Positions 1 through 29,477 of a stretch of 37,942 nt of DNA are shown here, piece by piece; the stretch's first letter is position 1; each line of letters opens with the position of its first letter. The notes below the pieces were generated by a model. It worked only from the letters and a program-made list of their open reading frames with translations. It did not search any database and was not told the origin of the DNA. This DNA is from a virus. The stretch is from positions 1-37,942 of the IMG/VR virus record IMGVR_UViG_3300043803_000633; one strand, given 5' to 3'. The position numbers and the translations under genes are program-made.

Positions 1-3000
1 CCCCTGCATCTCGGCGCTCGGTGCCTTGCCCTCGAACAGGTAGACCTCGAACGAGTAGGCGAACTGCTCGTGCGCCTTGCGCTTCTGGTCGAGCGTCATG
101 CCGTTCCACGTGGCGAGGCGCGCCTGCGGCGTGTCGCCGGCGATGCCTGCCCAGCGGAGCACTTCGTCCAGGTCGTTGACGATGCGCGCCGGGGCATCCG
201 GCATCTGCGCGACCTGCTCGTAGAACGTGAGGAATGCGTGCGCCGACTCGTGCAGGAACGTCGAAAGGTCGGCGGTCTTGTTGAGGATCGTGGTCAGCCG
301 GCGCGGGTCGAAGCCGCCGCGGGCGGGGCCTACTGCGGCCTGCTCGTATCGTCCTGCTTCTTCGAGGTACTGGGCAACGAGGCGCGTGGCTTCGCGGCGG
401 TAAGCATCAACACGCCGTCGCCCAGGAGCGCCTTGAGCTCGCCGCCCTTCATCTGCCGCACGGGCGGCTTCGTCTGGGATCCGGGTTTCATCGAGTGACC
501 TCCATCCAGTGTCGTGCGTGATTTCAACAACGCGGCCATCGCCAGCAAGGGCATCCGAGATTGTACGCGCAAGTACAGCGCCATCGACCCCGGGGTTGAG
601 ACTAATAATCATCGAGTCTTCAACCGTGGCGTGCCCCTGAATGCCAAGCGGGAACAACTTGGTTTCGTACAGGTTTCCAATGTCTTCGACGGTCGTTCCG
701 GGTTGGAGGCGCAGCACGACAATGTCGGCGGCCTCGGATCCCTGGAACTCGCTGGCCGACAGCGTGAACACCGCCTGCTGCGACAGCGCTTGGCCGACTG
801 CTTGGGCGACTTGGCGCACCAGCGGGCCAGGCGGCATCTTCAGTGCGAAACCAACGTTGGTGCTCCCCTCCCAGCCGCCGACCTGCATGACCATGTCTGC
901 CGCAATTCCGAACTCCTGCGTGATGTTCGGGATGATGTCTTCGGCAACGCGGACGCTGATCTCTTGCCGGAGCTGCGGAGTCAAGGACTCCCAACGACTG
1001 ACGAGTTCCGTGTTTGCCGGATCTGGCGCCACCTCAAACATGACGGACGCGGCCGTTGGCTGCGCGACGAATCGCTTTGCCTGGGCATCCGCCGCAGTGC
1101 GTGATACGCCCTCATATCCGGCTCCAGGCTGCATGTCGGTCGGAAGCGCCACCCATGACGGCATTGTGATCCCGCCGGCACGCTGCATGACGTCTGCACG
1201 CGCCTCGTCTATTCCGATCTCGCCGTCGACATACCGCTTCCATGTCGCGGCTACCGGGGCTTTCAGGCCGCCCTTCATCGCAGCTTCGAACATCCCGCGA
1301 ATCGCCTCCCAGGTGATCGACTGCATCTCACGCGGCTCAATCCCACGAGCCTCGGCGGCGCGGCGATATGCCTCATAGAAGACCGCATATCCGCCACCGA
1401 GCCCGAACATCGCGTTTCCGACACCACCGCCCAGGCCGTGCGCCACGAGTTTGTCTGTGCCGGCAAGCGGCATCAGATAGGCGGCGGCGATTGCGTGCGT
1501 GTCAATCGTCGCGAACCGTGGGTCCGCTGGGTTGAACAGGTTGTTGTAGAAATTCCTGACTTTGTGCTCTGCGCCGATCAGGAAGTGCACGTTCTCGGCG
1601 CGGCCATCGACATACGCTGCAATCGCCTTGGCGACCTCGTTGTAACTGCCGTACCTGATGCTTGCCGGGATTCCTGCATCGGTCAACATCGGCGACCCAA
1701 CGCCACCCTCCGGGCTGATCACCGGGTACGTTCGGTCGTTCTTCGTCTGGTCGAACCAGCGCACCATGATCGCCGCGAGGAAGAAGTCACGGTCTTCGAG
1801 AAGCTTTGACAGCGTGCGATCACCAATCGCATCGATGTTTCTCTGAGCCTCGACAACCTTCGCGGACGCAGCATCCAGCAGGGCGGCGATCTCATCTCGC
1901 TCCTTCTGCCATTCTTCGGCGGCCTTCTTGCCACGCTTGGGCTTGGCGGCATCGTGCTTGTCAAGCTGGCCCTGCTTCTTCGTGACGTCCTTGCGAAGCG
2001 AAGACAGATAGGCGTCCCGCATCTCCGCATCCATCGCTGCGGAACTCTGGGTCGCGACGATGTCGATGATCCTGATGCCAAGTCCGACGTTCTCGTACCA
2101 GTTCTTCTGCGGGGACAAGACCGCAAATACTGTCGCCGCCTGCATCGGAGACATGCCGTGTCTCTCGGACAGCCAATCAACGAGCCTCCTTCCGCCGACG
2201 TACCACATCCTGGCGCGGTCGCGGATTGCCGGATCCATCGCGTCGTGAAGCCACAGAAGATTGCTCTTCATGTGCTCGATGATCTGCTCAAGCTGCTGCT
2301 GCTCGGTTGCGCTTTCGTCGATTCGCACCGGAGCGTTCAACTCCTTGAACTTCGCAAGGTTCTTCGCAACGAACTTCTCGTCACGCAGGAACGCCGGGAA
2401 GTCTGCGAGCAACACATCGTTGAGCGCATCCTCGATTGGCTTCACCGCGGTCGGAACCCGCGTGGACATTGCGGCCTGCTCAAACAGCTTCGGGCTGGTG
2501 ATGTCGAATCGGCGCGACAGCGGCACGACGTTGCCGGCATCGTCGCGGGTGACGGGGTCGGCGAGTTTGATCTTGTTCTCATTGAGGACAACAGTTGAAA
2601 CAAATGTGCCCTCTACTGCATCTTTATCTTCGTCAAGCAGTTTGACGATGTCATACCCATCTACTGCGGCAGATTCCTGAATGTCTTTCCATCTTCGGCC
2701 ACTCCATGTTCCTTCCCAGTCATACAGCCGTCCGCTCAATACGGCATCCTCTGGTGATACAGATTCACCAGTAGACCGATCAACGAAATCCCATTCTCCA
2801 TCTTCCGCCCATTTGCGAATCCACGCTATTGCTTCGGGTGTTGGCTGAGTCAAATCAAGCGTTCGTCCACCAACATAGAAACGTCTTGCGCCACCTTCCT
2901 TGTTCGCATACTTGTCGGCAACGTCTTGATTTGTGGTCGTAAAGATTCCCGGTTCACGTCGTGCGCCACGTCGATATTCCGTGATTTGCGCTGCGTTCCG

Positions 3001-5535
3001 ATCTCCTCTCCACACAATTTCTGTAAGTCCACTTGCTCTCGCCGCCTCGTCCACCATCCGCTGCGCGGTCGCCATGTCGCCGCGCTCGACCGCCGCAAGA
3101 TAATCGGCGTCGAGCGTGGCGGCCTGCTCAAGCGGCGATGATGGAGCAACGGGGATTCCTGCCAGATTCAGGACCGCGGATTCCTTGATGGCCTCGTACA
3201 GGTTCTGGCCGCGCTTCGGCGTGATCTTGAACAGCGGGATGTTTCCTGCCGCAAGGTTTGGATCATCCTTTGATCTGAACCGCAGCGTCCCATACGGAAA
3301 CACGTATGCCTCGCCGCCGACAAGTTCGCCGGCCCACGTCCACCGACCTTCTTCCATTGCAGCAATGGAATCAACCATCCCACTCCGAAGCCCTTCGCGC
3401 ATGATGCTTTCGGAACGTTCGGCAGCCCCGGGACGAACGTCCTGATGAATCGCCAGCAGGTTCTTCACCGCATCGAAATCCTCGCGACTCCATGTCTTCG
3501 GGTCGCGTGTCAGGATGTCAATGTCTCGCTGCATTGCGGCGTTGCTTGTCGTTGCTGGGATGCCGAGTTGACTTGCGCGAGTCTGCAATTGCGAACGAGC
3601 AGACTGCTCAAGCGGCGCTGCCGGCGCAGCCATGCCCTCGCCCTCGACGCGGACGGGGAAACGCTCGTACACCTGCTTCGGGGTCAGCCCCATCGACGCC
3701 GCCTGCGTCACGTAGAAGTCGCGCATGAACTGCGCGCTCGAGCGCGCCGCACGCTCGTCCATCTGCCCGGTCGCCTGGATCTGCGACGCCAGCGTGTCCT
3801 CGATCTCACGCGCCTCCTGCACGAAGGTGCCGCTCGCTGACTCCTTCTCGGTCAGGATGCGCTCGGCGTCCTTCACGATCTCCTGCCGCCGCGCCTGGAA
3901 CTCCTGCGCCTCGGTCAGGCTCATCGCGTCCGGGTCGAGCCGCATGTGCGGCAGCAGCGCGTTCCCGAGGTCCGTGTTCGCCAGCCGCGCCCCGAACCGC
4001 GCCGTCTGGATCGTCACGTCCCCGCCCGTGGCGACCGCCTCGTCCACCTGCGCCTTGATCCCGGGCAGCACCTCCTCGAGCTGCGCCGCCGTCAGGCCGC
4101 TCTGCGCGAACAGCTCTTGTGCCGTGCGCCCGTCCACGTAGATCGTCTCGGCGGGGCCGTCCTTTGCCTGCGCCTCGAGGAACCGCTCGTATGCCTCCGG
4201 GCTGCGCTTGGCGAGCCTGCTGTCCTTGCCGGCCGTGGCAAGCTTCTCAAAGAACACCTGCTGCCGCTCGGTGTTGGCCGCACGGCTCAGGTCTACGTAC
4301 AGGTTCGCGCCCGGTCCGATGCCGCCCAGGATGGCCGACCCCATCGCGCCCTGCACGAAGGCGTCCACCACGCGCTCGGTGGCCTGCCGCAGGCCAGTCT
4401 CGCTGTCGATCCCGGACGCCGCCTTGGCGATCTCCTCGCCGGCGATGATGACCACCTCTTGGAGCGCCTCCTCGCTGGCCTCGGTCCCGACCTGGAGGAT
4501 GTAGCCCTTCCCGGCCGCTGCGAGCGCAGCGCGGGTCGTGGGCTGCGCCACGGCCTTGGACACCGCCTCGGCCATGAAGCGCTTGGCAAGCGCCTGGAAC
4601 GGCTTGGCGGCGATCTTCATGCCGACCACCTCGATCACGCCGTTCAGGAACCCGCCCGCCACGGACACCGGGATGGCAACGTCATCCTCGACGCCTTCCT
4701 CGCGCAGGTCGAGGTACAAGTTCCCGGCCTCCATCTGCCCGGTCGTGGCGACCACGCCTGCGGTCGCGCCGAGCGCGCCGCCGGCAATCGTGCCGAGGAC
4801 GGGCATCGCGCTGCCGACCGCCGCGCCGCCGACCGTGAACGTGCCGATCCCTCGGATCTGTGCAAGGTTCTGTGCGATGACCTCGGTGGTCGCGCCCAGG
4901 AACCCGACGTCCACCAGCTCGCGCATCCGGTCGCGGATCTTGGTCGCACGCTCAAAGTCCTCGGGCTGCGCCAGACCAGCCATTGCCCTGCCGCCGATCT
5001 CGCCGCGCTCGGCAACGAGCTGGCCACGCTCGAATCCGCGCCGCATTCCCGGGGTCATCCCGGTCACGTAGAACTGCACGTAGTCCAGCATGAACGGCCG
5101 GATCGTCCCCAGCACGTCGATGTCATCGTGAGCCGTCTCCGCGAACTCCTTGTTGGCGAGGAAATTCGCCATGACCGGGTCGGTGCGGAGGAAGTCCTTT
5201 GAGCGCAGGTCGGATAGGTACGCCTGCTGCTCGGCCCGCTGCATGTCGGCACGGGCCACCTCGGCCGGGATGCCGACCTTCCTGCCGACCTTGATGGCGC
5301 GTGCGGCCTCGTCCGGGTTGACGGCGCGTGCGCCGAGCACGGCGGCGTCGAGCGACTCCGTGTCCTTCTCCGCGATCTGCGCAGCCACCGGGTCGACGTC
5401 AGGCATTGCCATCGTCGGCTGCGAGGTCGGGATGGCCGCACGTGACGCGATCTCGGACGCAATCGGGTCTAGATCGTCCTGGACCTGCGAGGGCGAGAAT
5501 CGTGCCATGCGCTCGTTGATGTCCGGCTCGATCAC
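1..5535 (-). CDS. Giant polyvalent virion (injected) protein, C-terminus cut by window edge
   Basis: An open frame of 1,845 codons runs without a stop to the left edge. The chosen start is GTG at 5535, which overlaps the stop of the upstream internal virion gene (GTGA) and has GGAAGGG upstream; ATG at 5508 is an alternative. Residues about 228-268 are a glycine/alanine-rich hydrophobic stretch, followed near 350 by TEASEEALQE, as in other injected phage proteins. Residues about 835-1010 look like the ADP-ribosyltransferase domain of phage polyvalent proteins: EIVWRGDRN at the front, GIFTTTNQDVADKYA in the middle, and the typical ending DDAGNVVPLSRRFD. Residues about 1075-1360 carry LSPQKNWYEN, HKVRNFYNN and IDTHA, resembling a helix-hairpin-helix-like phage domain. 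Near the cut end, HESAH (1762-1766) is a zincin-type HExxH motif. It is the last of the internal virion genes, so it is probably packaged and ejected with the DNA. The domain names are inference. Confidence 0.85.
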   Translation of the reverse strand, partial: MIEPDINERMARFSPSQVQDDLDPIASEIASRAAIPTSQPTMAMPDVDPVAAQIAEKDTESLDAAVLGARAVNPDEAARAIKVGRKVGIPAEVARADMQRAEQQAYLSDLRSKDFLRTDPVMANFLANKEFAETAHDDIDVLGTIRPFMLDYVQFYVTGMTPGMRRGFERGQLVAERGEIGGRAMAGLAQPEDFERATKIRDRMRELVDVGFLGATTEVIAQNLAQIRGIGTFTVGGAAVGSAMPVLGTIAGGALGATAGVVATTGQMEAGNLYLDLREEGVEDDVAIPVSVAGGFLNGVIEVVGMKIAAKPFQALAKRFMAEAVSKAVAQPTTRAALAAAGKGYILQVGTEASEEALQEVVIIAGEEIAKAASGIDSETGLRQATERVVDAFVQGAMGSAILGGIGPGANLYVDLSRAANTERQQVFFEKLATAGKDSRLAKRSPEAYERFLEAQAKDGPAETIYVDGRTAQELFAQSGLTAAQLEEVLPGIKAQVDEAVATGGDVTIQTARFGARLANTDLGNALLPHMRLDPDAMSLTEAQEFQARRQEIVKDAERILTEKESASGTFVQEAREIEDTLASQIQATGQMDERAARSSAQFMRDFYVTQAASMGLTPKQVYERFPVRVEGEGMAAPAAPLEQSARSQLQTRASQLGIPATTSNAAMQRDIDILTRDPKTWSREDFDAVKNLLAIHQDVRPGAAERSESIMREGLRSGMVDSIAAMEEGRWTWAGELVGGEAYVFPYGTLRFRSKDDPNLAAGNIPLFKITPKRGQNLYEAIKESAVLNLAGIPVAPSSPLEQAATLDADYLAAVERGDMATAQRMVDEAARASGLTEIVWRGDRNAAQITEYRRGARREPGIFTTTNQDVADKYANKEGGARRFYVGGRTLDLTQPTPEAIAWIRKWAEDGEWDFVDRSTGESVSPEDAVLSGRLYDWEGTWSGRRWKDIQESAAVDGYDIVKLLDEDKDAVEGTFVSTVVLNENKIKLADPVTRDDAGNVVPLSRRFDITSPKLFEQAAMSTRVPTAVKPIEDALNDVLLADFPAFLRDEKFVAKNLAKFKELNAPVRIDESATEQQQLEQIIEHMKSNLLWLHDAMDPAIRDRARMWYVGGRRLVDWLSERHGMSPMQAATVFAVLSPQKNWYENVGLGIRIIDIVATQSSAAMDAEMRDAYLSSLRKDVTKKQGQLDKHDAAKPKRGKKAAEEWQKERDEIAALLDAASAKVVEAQRNIDAIGDRTLSKLLEDRDFFLAAIMVRWFDQTKNDRTYPVISPEGGVGSPMLTDAGIPASIRYGSYNEVAKAIAAYVDGRAENVHFLIGAEHKVRNFYNNLFNPADPRFATIDTHAIAAAYLMPLAGTDKLVAHGLGGGVGNAMFGLGGGYAVFYEAYRRAAEARGIEPREMQSITWEAIRGMFEAAMKGGLKAPVAATWKRYVDGEIGIDEARADVMQRAGGITMPSWVALPTDMQPGAGYEGVSRTAADAQAKRFVAQPTAASVMFEVAPDPANTELVSRWESLTPQLRQEISVRVAEDIIPNITQEFGIAADMVMQVGGWEGSTNVGFALKMPPGPLVRQVAQAVGQALSQQAVFTLSASEFQGSEAADIVVLRLQPGTTVEDIGNLYETKLFPLGIQGHATVEDSMIISLNPGVDGAVLARTISDALAGDGRVVEITHDTGWRSLDETRIPDEAARAADEGRRAQGAPGRRRVDAYRREATRLVAQYLEEAGRYEQAAVGPARGGFDPRRLTTILNKTADLSTFLHESAHAFLTFYEQVAQMPDAPARIVNDLDEVLRWAGIAGDTPQARLATWNGMTLDQKRKAHEQFAYSFEVYLFEGKAPSAEMQG

Positions 5536-11244: not shown

Positions 11245-11925
11245 TCAGCGTCCAGAGATCCAGGGCGTGATGTGCTCGGGCTTCACGTCGCGCTGGCTGG
11301 CGTCTGACGCCTTCGCCTGCTGGATGTATCCAAGCGCCATCTGCATGCACTTGCGGCCCTCTGCGGCGCCCTCGGCGCCCTTCACGACCGGGCCTGCGAG
11401 CATCGACGCGAGGTGCCACGCGAGCGCGTTGGAGAACAGCGGGTCGAACTTGGTCGGGTCGGTGACGAGCGCCTGGTAGCGCAGGAGCGCGTTCTCCTGG
11501 TTGGTGTAGATCACCTTGTTCCCGGCCGTGTCCGTCTCGATCTGGTACTCCTGCGGGACGTAGGTTCCGCCGGCGACGAACGGGGTGTTGATCCAGCCCC
11601 ATCCGTAGCGGTCGGCCGGGTAGGCGCGCACCGCGTAATCGTTCTCTGCCTGCGGGGGCAGCACCGCCACGGCGGTCATCATGTCGCCCGGGCAGGCGTA
11701 TGCGTACTTCCACATCGTGTATGGCATCGTCACCTGCGCGAGGCTGACGCGCCGCGAGGCGAAGTTCCATGCGTGCATCTGGAGCAGCGTGTCGCGTGCG
11801 ATGGGGTAGAACCGCTGGCAGTGCTCTGCCTGCGCGGAGCCCTCCGGCGGGTCGATACTGGCGACTGTGGCATCGTCCCCCAGGTATGCGAGCGCGAGGT
11901 TGCAGATGTCTACGACGGATGGCAT
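11245..11925 (-). CDS. Tail tubular protein A-like adaptor (226 aa)
   Basis: The start (VVDICNLALAYLGD) and the following AEHCQRFYPIARDTLLQMHAWNFA are the signature of the podoviral tail tubular protein A / head-completion adaptor, equivalent to T7 gp11. Length fits the family (about 200-230 residues). It should form the ring joining the portal to the nozzle. A good ribosome site (AAGGGAG) lies seven bases before the ATG. It is separated from the preceding small gene by 74 bases holding a strong stem-loop, so it may begin its own transcript segment. Confidence 0.92.
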   Translation of the reverse strand: MPSVVDICNLALAYLGDDATVASIDPPEGSAQAEHCQRFYPIARDTLLQMHAWNFASRRVSLAQVTMPYTMWKYAYACPGDMMTAVAVLPPQAENDYAVRAYPADRYGWGWINTPFVAGGTYVPQEYQIETDTAGNKVIYTNQENALLRYQALVTDPTKFDPLFSNALAWHLASMLAGPVVKGAEGAAEGRKCMQMALGYIQQAKASDASQRDVKPEHITPWISGR

Positions 11926-21510: not shown

Positions 21511-21639
21511 GATGGCGGAATGCGTTTGCTACACCAATGGGTGCGCGATCACCGGGCCGTCCCTCGCGGGCTTTCTGCCGGTGCCCATGTGAGTGGTTGG
21601 GGCCGAAGCCACCGCAGACTCACCCCTCCGCACCGAGAG

Positions 21640-21653
21640 TATACCTACGCAAA
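21640..21653 (+). promoter_or_regulatory. -10 element placed for a leaderless plus-strand transcript
   Basis: TATACC (21640-21645) stands exactly seven bases before the ATG at 21653, the same geometry as at 20384 on the other strand. No Shine-Dalgarno and no clear -35 are visible, so an activator may be needed. Confidence 0.35.
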
Positions 21654-22237
21654 TGCCCCGCCACGCAAATCTTCCGTTTCATCTCTACGTGCAAGTACAC
21701 AACTCGGCGCTCGGGCCGCAGATGCCCGAGGGCACGACACGCGGCATCTGGCACGCGGCGTACTGCCGGCCCGGGCAGGAACTCCTCGCGCACGTGCTGC
21801 TCGAGACGGGCGCGCACTGGTGCGGCATCCCGCTGCATCTCATGTCGATGACCACCGCGTTCCACCCGCAGGCCGTCGCCGGCGGCGGGTCGCGTGAGCT
21901 CACGCCCTGGGGCGGCATGGGCGAGCACCTCGAGGCCGTGCACCTCCACTACCTCGAGGGACTGCCGTGCATGGGCGTTTCCCAGAAGACCGCACTTGGC
22001 GAGAGGCCCGGATTCACGGGCCGGCATACGGGAATCGTCTTCGACTGGGCGGATGGCTTCAGCCGCTACCCGCAGGAGCACAAGCCCCTGAACCTCATCG
22101 AGACGAGTTCGGGCTGGTTCATGCTGCTGCCGAACAACTACGTGCAGTACATCGACTCGCACTTCACCTCGTACGTCAAGGGCGAGCGCGACTTCCGGCA
22201 CTATCGTCGCGGCGACGAGGTCTACTGGCGTGACTGA
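21653..22237 (+). CDS. Unknown protein, His/Trp-rich, first gene of the plus block (194 aa)
   Basis: Not recognised. The sequence is well ordered in composition (LPFHLYVQVHNSALGPQMPE, RGIWHAAYCRPGQELLAHVL, LETGAHWCGIPLHLM, ETSSGWFMLLPNNYVQYIDS). It has about 15 histidines, many aromatics, no signal peptide and no membrane segment. It reads as a soluble globular protein. Its position as first gene after the control region suggests an early role such as host takeover or anti-defence, but nothing in the sequence proves it. The ATG has no ribosome site; GTG at 21593 is an in-frame alternative without one either. Codon use matches neighbours. Confidence 0.75.
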   Translation: MPRHANLPFHLYVQVHNSALGPQMPEGTTRGIWHAAYCRPGQELLAHVLLETGAHWCGIPLHLMSMTTAFHPQAVAGGGSRELTPWGGMGEHLEAVHLHYLEGLPCMGVSQKTALGERPGFTGRHTGIVFDWADGFSRYPQEHKPLNLIETSSGWFMLLPNNYVQYIDSHFTSYVKGERDFRHYRRGDEVYWRD

Positions 22238-23052: not shown

Positions 23053-23958
23053 TTACTGCGCTTCACGGACCTCGAAGCGCAGGGTACGGGTCGAGACCCC
23101 GTTCCTGCGGGCGCATTCCATCCAGAACCTGAGCCATAGCGCCCCCTTCGGCTTGGGCGGCATGCCCTTCTCGACGGCCCATCCGCCCTGCTCGCTGAAC
23201 TCGTCCTTGTAGCCTGGGCTGCGGACATGCAGGACGCGGTCGAGGTACGGCCTGCCGTGGAGCGAAAGCCTCGCCCGCTGGATCGGCATGATCCATTCGT
23301 CGTGGGTGTGGCCCGTCCAGATCAGGTCGGCGTCCGGCAGGTAGACCGCCATGCGCGAGGTCTGGATGGTGCCCCTGGTGACCGGGCCGCCGCCGCCGTA
23401 ACCGTGGTGCATGTACATCACGACGCTGCTGGCAACGAGCTGGCGGTATCCCTTCTTTCGGACGAGGAACCGGACCCAGTTTGCATAACTTCCTGCATAT
23501 GCACGGCAGTCCTTGTTCCTCGCCTTAAGTGCCTCAACCAGGCGCTCGTTCATGTCCGTTTCGTGGCGCTTTCGGATCGCGGTTTCGTGGTTGCCGGGTG
23601 CGAACATGAGCGCCATGTCTGCCCACGGCGCGAGATAGTCGGCGGTTGTGTTGATGACGGCGTCGAGGTAGCGCCCCTCGCGGTGCTCGGGACGGCAAGC
23701 CGAGGTGTCAGACCTCAAATCGTATTTTCCTTGCATACAGCATAGGAAATCCCCGTTCGAGATCCACTTCGCCCCGCGCTCCCGGCACTGGCGCATGTGC
23801 CGCTCGAACATCTGCCGATCCGCGTGGGCGTTGTCGATGTGCGCGTCGGAGATCAGGAGATATTCCTGGCTCCAGTCCTGCGACGGGCTCGATCCATCCC
23901 CATCATGCGACATCTCGACGGTGAACGATCCGGGCTGGTGCTGCGTCATCGACACCAT
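23053..23958 (-). CDS. Calcineurin-like metallophosphoesterase
   Basis: 301 residues from ATG 23958 (AAGG nine bases upstream); ATG 23949 also possible. The five metal-binding blocks are intact: SDAHID (37-42), NGDF (68-71), PGNHE (121-125), MHHGYGGGG (183-191) and GHTHDE (216-221). Such enzymes hydrolyse phosphomonoesters or diesters with two metal ions. In phages they may remove 5'/2',3'-phosphates from RNA or DNA, or degrade cyclic-nucleotide alarm signals used by host defence; the substrate cannot be told here. It is the first gene of a four-gene minus-strand island that opposes the plus block and has a dyad just upstream. Confidence 0.9.
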   Translation of the reverse strand: MVSMTQHQPGSFTVEMSHDGDGSSPSQDWSQEYLLISDAHIDNAHADRQMFERHMRQCRERGAKWISNGDFLCCMQGKYDLRSDTSACRPEHREGRYLDAVINTTADYLAPWADMALMFAPGNHETAIRKRHETDMNERLVEALKARNKDCRAYAGSYANWVRFLVRKKGYRQLVASSVVMYMHHGYGGGGPVTRGTIQTSRMAVYLPDADLIWTGHTHDEWIMPIQRARLSLHGRPYLDRVLHVRSPGYKDEFSEQGGWAVEKGMPPKPKGALWLRFWMECARRNGVSTRTLRFEVREAQ

Positions 23959-23997
23959 GCGCCGACACCTTACGCACTTTCCCCGCGATTTCACGCC

Positions 23998-24025
23998 GTA
24001 AGAAATTCTTGCCGGAATTTCTAAC
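23998..24025. promoter_or_regulatory. Dyad operator between divergent genes
   Basis: AGAAATTC (24001-24008) and GAATTTCT (24015-24022) are perfect inverted repeats over TTGCCG. Two more outer pairs (GT/AC) match beyond one mismatch. It is AT-rich in a GC-rich region and sits between the minus-strand phosphoesterase (start 23958) and the plus-strand operon promoter (24035-24064), so one protein could control both directions. Confidence 0.6.
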
Positions 24026-24034
24026 GCAACCCCC

Positions 24035-24064
24035 TTGCGCCGCCGATATAGCCCGATGTATACA
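24035..24064 (+). promoter_or_regulatory. Candidate promoter of the plus-strand middle operon
   Basis: TTGCGC (24035-24040), 18-base spacer, TATACA (24059-24064). It lies just downstream of the dyad and would start transcription near 24071, at the foot of the leader hairpin. Confidence 0.45.
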
Positions 24065-24068
24065 CCCC

Positions 24069-24104
24069 GCACCCGAGCGCGTTGCTCGGTGCACAACACC
24101 GGAG
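24069..24104 (+). promoter_or_regulatory. Leader with two mutually exclusive hairpins near the ribosome site
   Basis: Hairpin A: GCAC(C)CGAGC-GCGTT-GCTCGGTGC (24069-24092; nine pairs, one bulge). Hairpin B: CGGTG (24087-24091) with CACCG (24097-24101), which uses part of A's right arm and begins to cover the GGAG ribosome site at 24101-24104. Only one can form at a time, so translation of the next gene could be switched. Confidence 0.4.
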
Positions 24105-24111
24105 AACTGCC

Positions 24112-24363
24112 ATGAAGGTCAGAGATACGGTCACCAACCACATCACGCTTCGTCAAGAAACTCGCAGCAAGTACGACAACGTGCTTCTCGCGGCAGCGAT
24201 GGAACTGGGGGACTCGGTCAGCGCCGAGGTCATCGCCGCCAGCCGCGCCGTCGCCCAGAGCAACCTTGACGCCGAGCACGAATTCGACGCCTCCATCCTG
24301 TGGCTCCAGCAGGCCGAGAAGGACTTCCTCGCCGTCCACGCCAAGACGGAGGTCGAGCTGTGA
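24112..24363 (+). CDS. Unknown helical protein (83 aa)
   Basis: MKVRDTVTNHITLRQETRSK, then YDNVLLAAAMELGDSVSAEV and DASILWLQQAEKDFLAV. Predicted all-helical and soluble. No family recognised. GGAG lies seven bases before the ATG. The first gene of a tightly packed operon in which nearly every stop overlaps the next start. Confidence 0.7.
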   Translation: MKVRDTVTNHITLRQETRSKYDNVLLAAAMELGDSVSAEVIAASRAVAQSNLDAEHEFDASILWLQQAEKDFLAVHAKTEVEL

Positions 24364-24910: not shown

Positions 24911-25245
24911 TCCTGCACGTAGACCACGTCGTTCCGCTCACGTCCGACTACGCCCGCACCAACCAACGCCTGGCCGAGTACCTCGGCAGCAATGACGTGT
25001 CGGTGCTCGTGGACGCCAAGTGGGTCGAGGACGAGAACGAACGCTTCCACCAGCACGGCAGCGTGCGGACGCGCTACTGGCGCCTGAAGTCCTGGGATCT
25101 ACTCGAGATCCGGCTTGACGGCACGGCGATCAACACGCCGCACGACGTGCCGAACGATTTCCCGATGCCTGAGGTCATCGCCATCGCCGAGGGCGGCGCG
25201 TTGCGCGACGAGCTTGAGCGCCAGGGCGCGAAGGCGAAGGCATGA
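24907..25245 (+). CDS. Unknown acidic protein (112 aa)
   Basis: MILHVDHVVPLTSDYARTNQ, RLAEYLGSNDVSVLV, GSVRTRYWRLKSWDLLEIRL, NDFPMPEVIAIAEGG. No family recognised. Start ATG 24907 overlaps the previous stop (ATGA) and has GGAGG upstream. Its stop overlaps the dcm start. A 9-mer GCGCGTTGC near its end also occurs in three structured sites elsewhere in this operon. Confidence 0.68.
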   Translation: MILHVDHVVPLTSDYARTNQRLAEYLGSNDVSVLVDAKWVEDENERFHQHGSVRTRYWRLKSWDLLEIRLDGTAINTPHDVPNDFPMPEVIAIAEGGALRDELERQGAKAKA

Positions 25246-26585
25246 GATACCTCTCCGTATGCTCGGGCATCGAGGCCGCAAGCGTTGCGTGGCACCATCT
25301 CGGCTGGGAGCCTGTCGGCTTCAGCGAGATCGAGCCGTTCCCGGCAGCGGTGCTGGCGCACCGATTCCCGAGCGTCCCAAACTTCGGAGACATGACCAAG
25401 TATGAGCAATGGCCCCTTCAACCCGGATCAATTGATGTTCTCGTGGGCGGAACTCCCTGCCAGTCCTTCAGCGTCGCAGGACTGCGAAAGGGACTCGAAG
25501 ACCCTCGCGGGAACCTCATGCTCACCTACCTTGCGATTGCTGCTCGGCTCCAGCCTCGATGGGTTGTCTGGGAGAATGTTCCCGGTGTCCTGTCATCGAA
25601 CGGAGGACGGGATTTCGCTACCTTCCTCTCAGCGCTGGGCCAACTCGGGTATGGGTGGGCCTACCGAGTGCTGGACGCTCAATACGTGCGAGTGGGGCGA
25701 TGGCCCCGAGCCGTCCCGCAGCGCCGCCGCCGGGTGTTCGTTGTCGGTCGCCTCCTTGAGCGAGGTGCTGGAGACTGGACCGCTGCCGCCGAGGTTCTCG
25801 CTCTCCGCGAAGGCTTGCAGCGGCATTTTGAGGCGAGCGGAAAGACGCGGAAAGGCGCTGCCTCCGATGCTGAAGTCGGCGCTCGAGGCGGTTGCTGGTG
25901 GGACGGTGGGCAAGTAAGCGAAACGCTGCATCAAAGCAAGTGCGGTGGCGCAGGCGTGTCGCTCATGCCTGACAAGGGCAACTTCGAGGCGGTGTTGCAG
26001 CCGACCGCTTACCGCTGGCAGAACGACGCGCTGGGGTTGCAGCAGGACGATGCCGTGGCAGCTCTTCGCGCATCGGCCGGAAGCTCCGGGTTCCATGAGA
26101 TGAACCACCCGGTGATCGCGCAGCCTGCGGTGGCGTTCCCGATCAACACCATGACGATGGGTGGTAGCCCTGACCCAAGCAACGACTCACGGATGACGAT
26201 GGGTGTGGGCGCGGACGGAGATCCGCAGTTCACTTTGTCGAAGGCCCACAACCACGCGGTGGCCCACGCCTTCTACAGCACGGGCGGAACCCACGGAGTC
26301 AACCAACATCCCGAGGTGTCCCCCGCCGTGAAGGTGGGAAGTGGGCTCGGTATTCCTTCGCCGCCAGCGGTGGCTCAAGCCATGACCGTCCGCCGGCTCA
26401 CGCCCGTTGAGTGCGAGCGGCTCCAAGGCTTCCCGGACAACTGGACGGCGATCCCGTGGCGGAAGAAGCCTGCCGAGGAATGCCCGGACGGCCCCCGATA
26501 CAAGGCACTCGGCAACAGCATGGCCTGCAACTGCATGGCCTGGATCGGGGAGCGGATTGCAAAGTGGGAGGCCGAGCATGCGTGA
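25242..26585 (+). CDS. dcm: DNA (cytosine-5) methyltransferase
   Basis: 447 residues. Motif I SVCSGIEAAS (5-14), catalytic loop GGTPCQSFSVAG with C73, motif VI ENVPG (111-115), motif VIII QRRRRVFVVG (160-169), motif IX near LTPVECERLQGFPDNWT, and motif X ALGNSMACNCMAWIGERI near the end. It transfers methyl from S-adenosylmethionine to C5 of cytosine, probably to protect phage DNA from restriction. Residues about 210-380, in the target-recognition region, are long and low in similarity to other parts. The segment AQYVRVGRWPRAVPQRRRR carries about eight residues more than the AQYFGVPQRRRR usual in relatives. A second open frame lies inside the gene (25402-25917). Confidence 0.95.
   Translation: MRYLSVCSGIEAASVAWHHLGWEPVGFSEIEPFPAAVLAHRFPSVPNFGDMTKYEQWPLQPGSIDVLVGGTPCQSFSVAGLRKGLEDPRGNLMLTYLAIAARLQPRWVVWENVPGVLSSNGGRDFATFLSALGQLGYGWAYRVLDAQYVRVGRWPRAVPQRRRRVFVVGRLLERGAGDWTAAAEVLALREGLQRHFEASGKTRKGAASDAEVGARGGCWWDGGQVSETLHQSKCGGAGVSLMPDKGNFEAVLQPTAYRWQNDALGLQQDDAVAALRASAGSSGFHEMNHPVIAQPAVAFPINTMTMGGSPDPSNDSRMTMGVGADGDPQFTLSKAHNHAVAHAFYSTGGTHGVNQHPEVSPAVKVGSGLGIPSPPAVAQAMTVRRLTPVECERLQGFPDNWTAIPWRKKPAEECPDGPRYKALGNSMACNCMAWIGERIAKWEAEHA
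25402..25917 (+). CDS. Overprinted gene inside dcm (+1 frame), conserved phage protein family
   Basis: 171 residues fully inside dcm in another frame. The text is not random: MSNGPFNPDQLMFSWAELPA, RMFPVSCHRTEDG, NSGMGGPTECWTLNTCEW, SLSEVLETGPLPPRFSLSAK, ACSGILRRAERRGKALPPML. From memory, this matches phage proteins of about 170 residues that occur as their own genes beside cytosine methyltransferases, ending 'SLSDILETG.VPqRyfLSpkACaGILRRAekRGk.LPp.L'. Third-position GC of dcm is lower in a 25-codon sample here (about 60%) than before the overlap (about 81%), as expected if two frames are constrained. GGAG lies about 12 bases before the ATG. Function unknown. Confidence 0.55.
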   Translation: MSNGPFNPDQLMFSWAELPASPSASQDCERDSKTLAGTSCSPTLRLLLGSSLDGLSGRMFPVSCHRTEDGISLPSSQRWANSGMGGPTECWTLNTCEWGDGPEPSRSAAAGCSLSVASLSEVLETGPLPPRFSLSAKACSGILRRAERRGKALPPMLKSALEAVAGGTVGK

Positions 26586-27263: not shown

Positions 27264-27452
27264 ATGCTTGCGGGGCGAGGGGAACGGGACGAGGATGTCG
27301 TGGACCGCGTACGGGAGAGCGGCACGGACGATCCGCTCACGATTGAACTCATGCAGGAGGTCGTGTACCTGCGGCAGGAGATGGCGAAGCTCATACGCCA
27401 GGTGAACCGCCAAGTACTGGCAGCATCCAACCACAGGGTCCGCAATGATTGA
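27264..27452 (+). CDS. Small coiled-coil protein (62 aa)
   Basis: GERDEDVVDRVRESGTDDPL, TIELMQEVVYLRQEMAKLIR, QVNRQVLAASN. A single long amphipathic helix is likely. AAGGG lies upstream of the ATG, two bases after the previous stop. The stop overlaps the RusA start. Unknown function. Confidence 0.63.
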   Translation: MLAGRGERDEDVVDRVRESGTDDPLTIELMQEVVYLRQEMAKLIRQVNRQVLAASNHRVRND

Positions 27453-27855
27453 ATTCGTCGTGCCGGGATTCGCCGCCCCCCAGGGTTCCAAGCGTGCGGT
27501 CAAGCTCAGGAACGGGCGGGTCGTGCTGCTCGAGTCGAGCGCCAAGGTCAAGCCCTACCGAGCGGTGTTCGCGCTGGTGGCACGCGAGGCGTGGACCGAG
27601 CCGCCGGCGACCGGAGCGGTGGCGGTTGAGCTGTGCTTCCGGTTCCCGCGCCCGAAGTCGCACTTCACCTCGCGTGGCCTGCTCAGGCCGGCGCTGCCCT
27701 TGGCACCCACGCGGCCGGACCTGGACAAGCTTTGCAGAGCTGCCTTGGACGCGATGACCGGGGTCGTGTACGTGGATGACGGCCAGGTCGCGATGATCGC
27801 CGCCAGCAAGGAATGGGGCGAAACCGCCGAAACGCTGGTGAAAGTGTGGGCTTGA
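27445..27855 (+). CDS. rusA: RusA-family Holliday junction resolvase
   Basis: 136 residues. IEFVVPGFAAPQGSKRAVK at the front, FRFPRPKSHF, then the catalytic block TRPDLDKLCRAALDAMTGVV and VYVDDGQVAMIAASKEWG. Acidic residues D92, D94, D111, D112 and basic K95/K122 match the RusA metal site and its PDxDNlxKxxlDal.GvvyxDD signature. It cuts four-way junctions, here likely resolving Bet-made recombination intermediates and branched DNA before packaging. The next gene's promoter lies within its last codons. Confidence 0.93.
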   Translation: MIEFVVPGFAAPQGSKRAVKLRNGRVVLLESSAKVKPYRAVFALVAREAWTEPPATGAVAVELCFRFPRPKSHFTSRGLLRPALPLAPTRPDLDKLCRAALDAMTGVVYVDDGQVAMIAASKEWGETAETLVKVWA

Positions 27856-27885: not shown

Positions 27886-27944
27886 GTCGGTGGCGCGTTG
27901 CCGCCGGCCGAGCGCGGCGACCCGCGCAAGCGAAGGAGATTCAC
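27886..27944 (+). promoter_or_regulatory. bet leader with two mutually exclusive stems
   Basis: Stem A: GGTGGC-GCGTT-GCCGCC (27889-27905; one G-T pair). Stem B: GTTGCCGC (27897-27904) with GCGGCGAC (27914-27921; one G-T pair). B takes the loop and right arm of A, so they exclude each other. The ribosome site GAAGGAG (27932-27938) is free in both drawings. The A loop is the same GCGTT as in the 24069 leader. Confidence 0.4.
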
Positions 27945-28955
27945 ATGAGTGCATTGGCACGCTTGGATGACGAGAAGCGCGAGCTGCTCGCACGGACGCT
28001 CTGCAACGGCGCGAGCCGGGATGAGCTCGACCTGTTCTTCAACATCTGCGAGCGCACCGGGCTCGACCCGTTCGCACGGCAGATCTACGCCGTGCGCCGC
28101 TACGACCGCAAGGCAGGCCGCGAGGTCATGCAGACCCAGGTCAGCATCGACGGCTTCCGCTTGGTCGCGCAGCGCAGCGGCGAGTACGCCGGGCAGACGG
28201 CCGTCGCGTACTGCGGCACGGATGGGCGCTGGGTGGACGTGTGGCTGAACGAGGAGCCGCCGGCGGCCGCCCGCGTGGGCGTGTACCGCAAGGGCTTCGT
28301 GGAGGCCGTGGTTGCCACGGCCCTGTTCCGCGAGTACGCGCAGCGGTCGAAGGATGGCTACCTCACCGGGATGTGGGGCAAGATGCCCACGGTGATGATC
28401 GCCAAGTGCGCCGAGGCACTCGCCCTCCGCAAGGCGTTCCCCGCCGAGCTGTCCGGTTTGTATACGCCCGAGGAGATGGCTCAGGCTGACAACCCGCCGG
28501 CCGCCGCGCCCATCGCCGCGCTGCCCGCCCCGGAGGTCGTGGAAGCCACCACGATGCCTCAGGACGCGCCCGTGGCCGTGGAGGCCCCCAAGCCCGTCCG
28601 CAAGCGCAAGGCCGCTCCTGAGGCATCTGCGCCCGTTCCGGCCCCGGCACCCAAGCCCGCCGAGCAGGGTGAGCCGTCCGATGTATACCCCGACGAGTAC
28701 GAGGGCAACTTCGCCGTCGTGCGGGTCGTGCGCCGCAAGGACCGCCCCATCGCCATCGCGGTCGCAGGGGAGCACGGCAACGCCTGGCTCGCCACCACGG
28801 TCGCGGAGTACGGGCAGCTCGCGGACAAGTCGACCGAGATGCGGCTCGACATCGCCCGGGTCGGGAACGCCCTGACGATCATGCGCGTCCTGTCGTCCAC
28901 CGAGCGCAAGCCCGCGCCGGCCCCCGCCGATGACGACCTGTCCATGCCCTTCTGA
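27945..28955 (+). CDS. bet: Red-beta/RecT-type recombinase (Bet) with C-terminal domain and SSB-like tail
   Basis: 336 residues. Residues 1-180 are the phage Bet annealing domain (ELDLFFNICERTGLDPFARQ, QIYAVRRYD, MQTQVSIDGFRLVAQRSGEY, GMWGKMPTVMIAKCAEALAL, RKAFP). Residues 183-250 are a Pro/Ala linker. Residues about 250-317 form a small beta-rich domain (NFAVVRVVRRKDRPIAIAVA). The last eight residues are DDDLSMPF, close to the acidic tip of bacterial SSB (DDDIPF). Bet anneals complementary single strands in phage recombination. The exonuclease partner is not in view. It has its own promoter and GAAGGAG ribosome site. Confidence 0.9.
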   Translation: MSALARLDDEKRELLARTLCNGASRDELDLFFNICERTGLDPFARQIYAVRRYDRKAGREVMQTQVSIDGFRLVAQRSGEYAGQTAVAYCGTDGRWVDVWLNEEPPAAARVGVYRKGFVEAVVATALFREYAQRSKDGYLTGMWGKMPTVMIAKCAEALALRKAFPAELSGLYTPEEMAQADNPPAAAPIAALPAPEVVEATTMPQDAPVAVEAPKPVRKRKAAPEASAPVPAPAPKPAEQGEPSDVYPDEYEGNFAVVRVVRRKDRPIAIAVAGEHGNAWLATTVAEYGQLADKSTEMRLDIARVGNALTIMRVLSSTERKPAPAPADDDLSMPF

Positions 28956-28970
28956 CCGAAAGGACCAACC

Positions 28971-29477
28971 ATGTCACTTTACGCAATCCAGAACGAGATC
29001 AGCGACATCATCGACGCCCTGCTCGAGGGCGGGCAGACGGAGGCAGACGCGAACGCGGCGCTCGAGGAGCACCTCGCCGGCCTCGACGCGGCGCTCGATG
29101 ACAAAGCCGAGGGCTACGCCAGCGTCATCCAGGAGCTCGCGCTCCGCGCCAAGGCACGCAAGGACGAGGCCGCCCGCATCCGCGCCCTGGCCGAGGCCGA
29201 CGAGGCCGTGGCCGACCGCCTCAAGAAGCGGCTCAAGGAGGCGATGGAGGCCACTGGCAAGACCAAGATCGACGGCCTGAAGTTCAAGCTGTCGGTGGCC
29301 GCCAACGGCGGGAAGCAGCCGCTCGTCATCGAAACCCCGGTCGATGATCTGCCGTCCGAGTTCAGGGTCGTGCGCCACGAGCCGAACAAGGACGCGATCC
29401 GCGCCGCGCTCGAGGCCGGCACGGCAGTCCCCGGCTGCACCCTGCTCCCGCGAGGCACAAGCCTGCGGATACGCTAG
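28971..29477 (+). CDS. Gp157-family phage protein
   Basis: 168 residues. The helical coiled-coil front (EHLAGLDAALDDKAEGYASV, IQELALRAKARKDEAARIRA) and the back (ATGKTKIDGLKFKLSVAANG, VDDLPSEFRVV, NKDAIRAALEAGTAVPGCTL) match the siphovirus Gp157 family, first linked to phage resistance in Streptococcus thermophilus and often found with recombination genes. Its molecular role is unclear. GAAAGGACC precedes the ATG. Last gene before the terminator. Confidence 0.88.
   Translation: MSLYAIQNEISDIIDALLEGGQTEADANAALEEHLAGLDAALDDKAEGYASVIQELALRAKARKDEAARIRALAEADEAVADRLKKRLKEAMEATGKTKIDGLKFKLSVAANGGKQPLVIETPVDDLPSEFRVVRHEPNKDAIRAALEAGTAVPGCTLLPRGTSLRIR

Follow-up and report, generated by a model that had tools for sequence, protein, structure and literature searches.

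A phage RecT-type annealase with a predicted OB domain and an SSB-like carboxyl tip, probably one protein doing two jobs

Recombineering is built on phage annealases, and the match to the host single-stranded DNA-binding protein (SSB) tail is thought to limit the bacteria in which they work. Sak4 of phage HK620 depends on the six C-terminal residues of its SSB (PMC5928155), and Sak80alpha of phage 80alpha cooperates with its SSB via the C-termini of both proteins (PMC11846896). The erf and ssb genes of Firmicutes phages are mostly neighbors and lie beside Gam/gp157 (PMC8093625). An engineered chimera, PriB-SSBc, in which an oligonucleotide/oligosaccharide-binding (OB) protein was given the SSB C-terminus, had higher affinity for single-stranded DNA (ssDNA) and stimulated PriA (PMC8509808). 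Here we describe a single-strand annealing protein (SSAP) encoded in IMG/VR virus record IMGVR_UViG_3300043803_000633 (positions 1 to 37,942; this whole stretch of 37,942 nucleotides is called the window). The freshwater-phage annealase is joined to a predicted OB domain and an SSB-like tip, and is probably one protein doing two jobs. No published annealase with an SSB tip of its own was found in the literature searched, in which subscription journals were thinly covered, so an earlier description is possible.

The SSAP gene (Table 1) begins with ATG, has a good ribosome-binding site upstream and encodes 336 amino acids, the translation ending in KPAPAPADDDLSMPF. The core matched the RecT family PF03837 (E 1.5e-30; 106.7 bits against a cut-off of 24). 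It also matched phrog_2780 (E 6e-62), with the Bet-like phrog_252 scoring far lower (E 4e-21), so that the name Red-beta recombinase, given in the initial annotation, stands at the level of the superfamily only. The remainder of the architecture described there agreed with the translation and with AlphaFold2 models: a Pro/Ala linker and a small beta-rich domain precede the acidic, SSB-like tail DDDLSMPF. The linker composition is kept across relatives. A sequence search of the whole protein against solved structures returned chance matches only.

Conservation of the tip was assessed by a profile scan of phage contigs, using the alignment of the C-terminal domain (type I) together with earlier loci. 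Fifty-nine distinct domains were recovered, 58 of them complete, and 53 of the 58 end in PF-COOH. Position -3 is L, V, M or I in all 53 tips, D or E occupies position -4 in 44 of them, and the number of acidic residues ranges from 1 to 4. The residues are kept while all four Pro codons (CCC, CCG, CCA, CCT) and both Phe codons (TTC, TTT) are used, which indicates purifying selection on the protein. Between the end of the domain and the C-terminus, 9 to 24 variable residues are found across relatives. An acidic PF end was present in 0/60 RecT homologues lacking such domains, two of which end KKILPF. When contigs were scanned with the whole protein as query, only tipless relatives were returned. 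The feature is real and well conserved, with strong support for the architecture and moderate support for the mechanism set out below.

Two trivial origins can be dismissed for the tip. It does not arise from overlap with the gene downstream, because the SSAP stop (28953-28955) precedes the next ATG (28971). Chance is ruled out by the conservation, by the control RecTs and by the single PF end in the window, where 675 stop-to-stop frames of at least 25 amino acids were listed and that of the SSAP alone ends PF. Other C-terminal extensions were also seen among relatives. The RecT loci L021 and L025 have an unrelated C-terminal domain ending KKILPF with no adjoining acidic residues. L016, L017 and L018, which share the core type of the window (RecT_A), carry other beta-rich, OB-looking domains that do not end in an acidic PF tip; in L018 the motif ELCIPF occurs internally, with EGK after it.

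The type I domain matched no family in Pfam or PHROG. AlphaFold2, given an alignment of 23 sequences from the window and the loci, predicted strands at 6-17, 24-30 and 33-39, a helix at 42-50, and strands at 51-61 and 64-75. This is a βββαββ OB topology, with a core predicted local distance difference test (pLDDT) value of ~90 and a disordered tail. With five strands and one helix, the model is distinct from the three-helix bundle of C-terminal domains of the Redbeta or lambda Orf-like kind. The best Foldseek matches in the PDB were nearly all OB proteins, namely RecO (template modelling scores by query length of 0.64 and 0.60) and Mycoplasma SSB (0.59), and also RPA, CST and HIN domains, at E-values of 0.01-0.15. 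The best viral structural match was P10 of APSE-5, whose APSE-1 counterpart lies in the lysis/packaging region. In named phages and plasmids, no meaningful match to the type I domain was found. The models convincingly place the domain in the OB fold class, with no specific family. The initial annotation had made its reading depend on an OB fold being predicted for this domain and on the tail being conserved in homologues; the model and the 53/58 tips agree with it on both counts.

A second, sequence-dissimilar domain (type II) was found in the contig of L180/L258, in which the capsid protein is 88% identical to that of the window and a RecT_A core is followed by a different C-terminal domain ending EDDIPF. 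Tips of the form [acidic]xIPF (EDDIPF, ADEIPF, etc.) are present in 18/18 type II loci, attached either to RecT_A or to a second core of ERF type (PF04404, E 2e-8). AlphaFold2 again predicted beta-beta-beta-alpha-beta-beta (pLDDT ~80), and the best PDB matches were SSB, RPA and PriB. Profile-profile comparison of types I and II gave a probability of 8%, too weak for homology. The type II domain had no meaningful match in named phages. A third type was seen in a single contig (L024; tip PDDLPF).

The type I linker, domain and tip occur on three cores: RecT_A, a distant RecT type (RecT_B; phrog_561, E 5e-11) and ERF (PF04404, E 3e-20). A tree of the C-terminal domains requires 13 or more core changes but only about two losses of the tip (the minimum being two). 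With many of its forks unresolved, the tree is a poor guide to the exact figure of 13. Identical C-terminal domains on different cores (e.g., L012, L142) show the shuffling directly. It is an evenly balanced proposition that the OB domain and SSB tip form a portable SSB-mimic cassette that has been shuffled among unrelated annealases (at least two RecT and at least two ERF types) and has arisen with two or more OB domains dissimilar in sequence. The annealase would then be its own SSB hub, the phage would dispense with a separate SSB gene, and the usual direction of tip reading would be reversed.

The window was also searched for a separate SSB gene, which the initial annotation had not seen. 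No PF00436 SSB was detected, nor any SSB among the small open reading frames scanned with PHROGs. Because the record is linear and, next to relatives of 40-41 kb, possibly lacks 2-3 kb, the window taken by itself is weak evidence of absence. The absence extends to the fused relatives: no contig with a type I or type II fusion encodes a PF00436 SSB. Among contigs of at least 30 kb, such a gene is present in 0/44 with the fusion and in 5/10 same-group relatives without it (Fisher p 8e-5, a value that ignores kinship of the contigs, some of which are incomplete). In DC33 and ctQRb9, which lack the fusion, a separate SSB ends MDDDIPF or MNDDIPF and the RecT has no such tail. Gp157 accompanies the fused SSAP in 12/13 contigs tested, versus 0/6 relatives without the fusion.

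Other small tip-bearing proteins were observed in this group. In ctEw122 and zth2-2, a PF00436 SSB is absent and the tip is borne by another small protein. Relatives without a PF00436 SSB encode small proteins ending DDDLPF or DDDIPF at L164:10236-10553 (-) and L165:17179-17595 (+) (MAKKIYDIAVKT... and MAKKLYDLAVKT..., respectively). The L164 protein had no Pfam match; the two are possibly another phage SSB family.

It is likely that the annealase, through its own OB domain and tip, acts in an SSB-like manner toward the host machinery. The RecT core would bind and anneal single strands, and the linker-borne OB domain would probably add an ssDNA grip of its own, like that of SSB. The acidic carboxyl tip, [D/E]-x-[L/V/I/M]-P-F with a free end, may dock in host pockets normally used for SSB (e.g., those of ExoI, RecO, RecQ or PriA). 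Annealase-coated phage ssDNA would then appear to the host as SSB-coated DNA, and annealing could lead on to processing or to restart of replication, with no need for the phage to encode a separate SSB. The binding of ssDNA and of partners is proposed here from established SSB biology; the effect on the cell is likewise a proposal. Mimicry of SSB and possession of an SSB-type domain had been posed as alternatives in the initial annotation; the evidence favors both together.

Several observations weigh against this proposal. The PF00436 profile matched neither the full protein nor the isolated C-terminal domain, and the type I Foldseek E-values are weak. Tips are lacking in 5/58 domains: two distinct sequences end EEATHV (L011/L012/L140/L142), two end QEVVR or QEVAR (L096/L106), and one, in L015, is frameshifted, with PADTPF readable past the frameshift in another frame. 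The tip is therefore dispensable in some phages, which have OB-type C-terminal domains without it. The recombination module has been exchanged as a whole, with Gp157 in and the exonuclease and SSB out; SSB absence is part of that exchange and is no proof that the fusion replaced SSB. Two ERF-fusion genomes (L259, L260) also encode a separate DUF736-like protein (weak match) ending PDTDIPF (Table 1). Other tip-bearing proteins can thus persist alongside the fusion, and strict mutual exclusion between the fused tip and other tip-bearing proteins is ruled out.

The tip could instead recruit phage partners (RusA, Gp157, the metallophosphoesterase, a replication protein) in place of host SSB-interacting proteins. 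The SSAP gene is flanked by RusA and Gp157 genes, Gp157 accompanies the fusion at the frequency given above, and there are precedents for a phage SSB tail acting on a phage SSAP (Sak4, PMC5928155; Sak80alpha, PMC11846896). We nevertheless consider it unlikely, as the tip fits the general bacterial SSB consensus and in close relatives, which lack Gp157, this tip is found on an ordinary SSB. A mainly intramolecular role, in which the tail folds onto the OB domain or RecT core and competes with ssDNA as a built-in regulator (a role suggested for the SSB and T7 gp2.5 tails), is quite unlikely. To compete with DNA, the tail would rely on negative charge, yet it is the acidic count that varies, and the terminal Pro-Phe and the aliphatic residue at -3 are invariant, a signature of docking in SSB-tip pockets; the linker, moreover, is down to a few residues in the L145 group. 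That both the C-terminal domain and the tail are simply inherited with the lineage, the domain being a generic beta fold and its acidic end resembling SSB by chance, would fit the weak type I E-values and the few tipless members, and is highly improbable and largely refuted by the 53/58 retention with synonymous Pro codon variation, the independent second OB domain with 18/18 tips, the 0/60 control RecTs and the transfer of the module onto several cores.

Coordinates of the fused gene, its parts and its immediate neighbors are given in Table 1. In its structural genes (GP7 capsid, head-tail connector) the phage matches the epsilon15-type podophages. Compared by capsid protein, its nearest named relatives, at 80-82% identity, are Limnohabitans phage DC33, phage zth2-2 and two spring-water phages. 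DC33 (L162, PQ492659.1) is classed under Inoviridae despite its 39-kb genome and an epsilon15-type capsid protein 82% identical to that of the window. Elsewhere in the window, a metallophosphoesterase resembling DNA repair exonucleases (PF00149; phrog_7339) is encoded at 23053-24339 (-); it may be the nuclease partner, as a YqaJ-type exonuclease was not seen next to the annealase. A C5-cytosine DNA methyltransferase (PF00145, E 7e-47) lies in the recombination region at 25242-26585 (+), and a weak match to a 'ferredoxin' phage family (phrog_3704, E 2e-6) at 21593-22237 (+). An open frame of 1845 amino acids runs off the left end (1-5535, -) and is probably part of a giant internal virion protein, as in DC33 and the spring-water phages.

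Table 1. Positions of the SSAP gene, its parts and neighboring genes (window numbering), and of separate tip-bearing proteins in two ERF-fusion genomes (locus numbering).
Feature	Positions	Strand	Basis
SSAP gene: RecT core, linker, predicted OB domain and SSB-like tip, 336 aa	27945..28955	+	
Ribosome-binding site AAGGAG	27933..27938	+	Read directly in sequence
RecT-type annealing core, residues ~4-190	27954..28514	+	PF03837 residues 13-184; phrog_2780 residues 4-201
Pro/Ala-rich linker with basic patch KPVRKRK, residues 191-245	28515..28679	+	Sequence
Type I C-terminal domain, predicted OB fold, residues 246-320	28680..28904	+	AlphaFold2, Foldseek, alignment
Short hypervariable linker, residues 321-328	28905..28928	+	pLDDT ~50; length varies among relatives
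SSB-like acidic tip DDDLSMPF-COOH, residues 329-336	28929..28952	+	Sequence and conservation
Gp157/Gam-like gene directly downstream of SSAP	28971..29477	+	PF05565 E 2e-34; phrog_253
RusA-like Holliday junction resolvase directly upstream of SSAP	27445..27855	+	PF05866 E 4e-17; phrog_140
DUF736-like tip-bearing protein	L259:3217-3396	-	
DUF736-like tip-bearing protein	L260:3021-3338	-	

An annealase with its own SSB-type domain and tip would couple annealing to the host repair network by a route undescribed in the literature searched. SSAP and SSB, normally the products of adjacent genes, would be united in one protein. The module allows a direct test of how its gain or loss affects annealase activity and host range.

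Lambda Redbeta (Bet) likewise has a core of the RecT/Redbeta superfamily and a small C-terminal interaction domain that ties the annealase to the SSB network (PMC8303780). In Redbeta, this domain forms a three-helix bundle and serves as a receptor for host SSB, whereas here a predicted OB fold ends in the SSB tip, the ligand. Among Firmicutes SSAPs, one accessory C-terminal helix-turn-helix domain has likewise been shuffled among SSAP families (PMC8093625); that shared domain is helical and resembles the Redbeta C-terminal domain, and PMC8093625 describes no OB fold or SSB tip. The Firmicutes erf-ssb pairs correspond here to one gene beside Gp157 holding both the SSAP and the SSB-like part. 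The window protein has the OB fold (predicted here), a flexible linker and an acidic Pro-Phe-COOH tip in common with bacterial SSB (PF00436) and with phage SSBs (e.g., that of DC33, 11520-11924). It differs from SSB in lacking a PF00436 sequence match, in its fusion to an annealase and in a linker much shorter than in SSBs of related phages. PriB-SSBc is artificial, whereas the window protein is a natural fusion that also holds an annealase. In the HK620 Sak4/SSB and 80alpha Sak/SSB pairs, SSAP and SSB work jointly, and six to seven residues at the SSB C-terminus are required; there the two are separate genes and the tip recruits the SSAP, whereas here both are in one chain. In the published cases the annealase reads the tip; here the annealase bears it.
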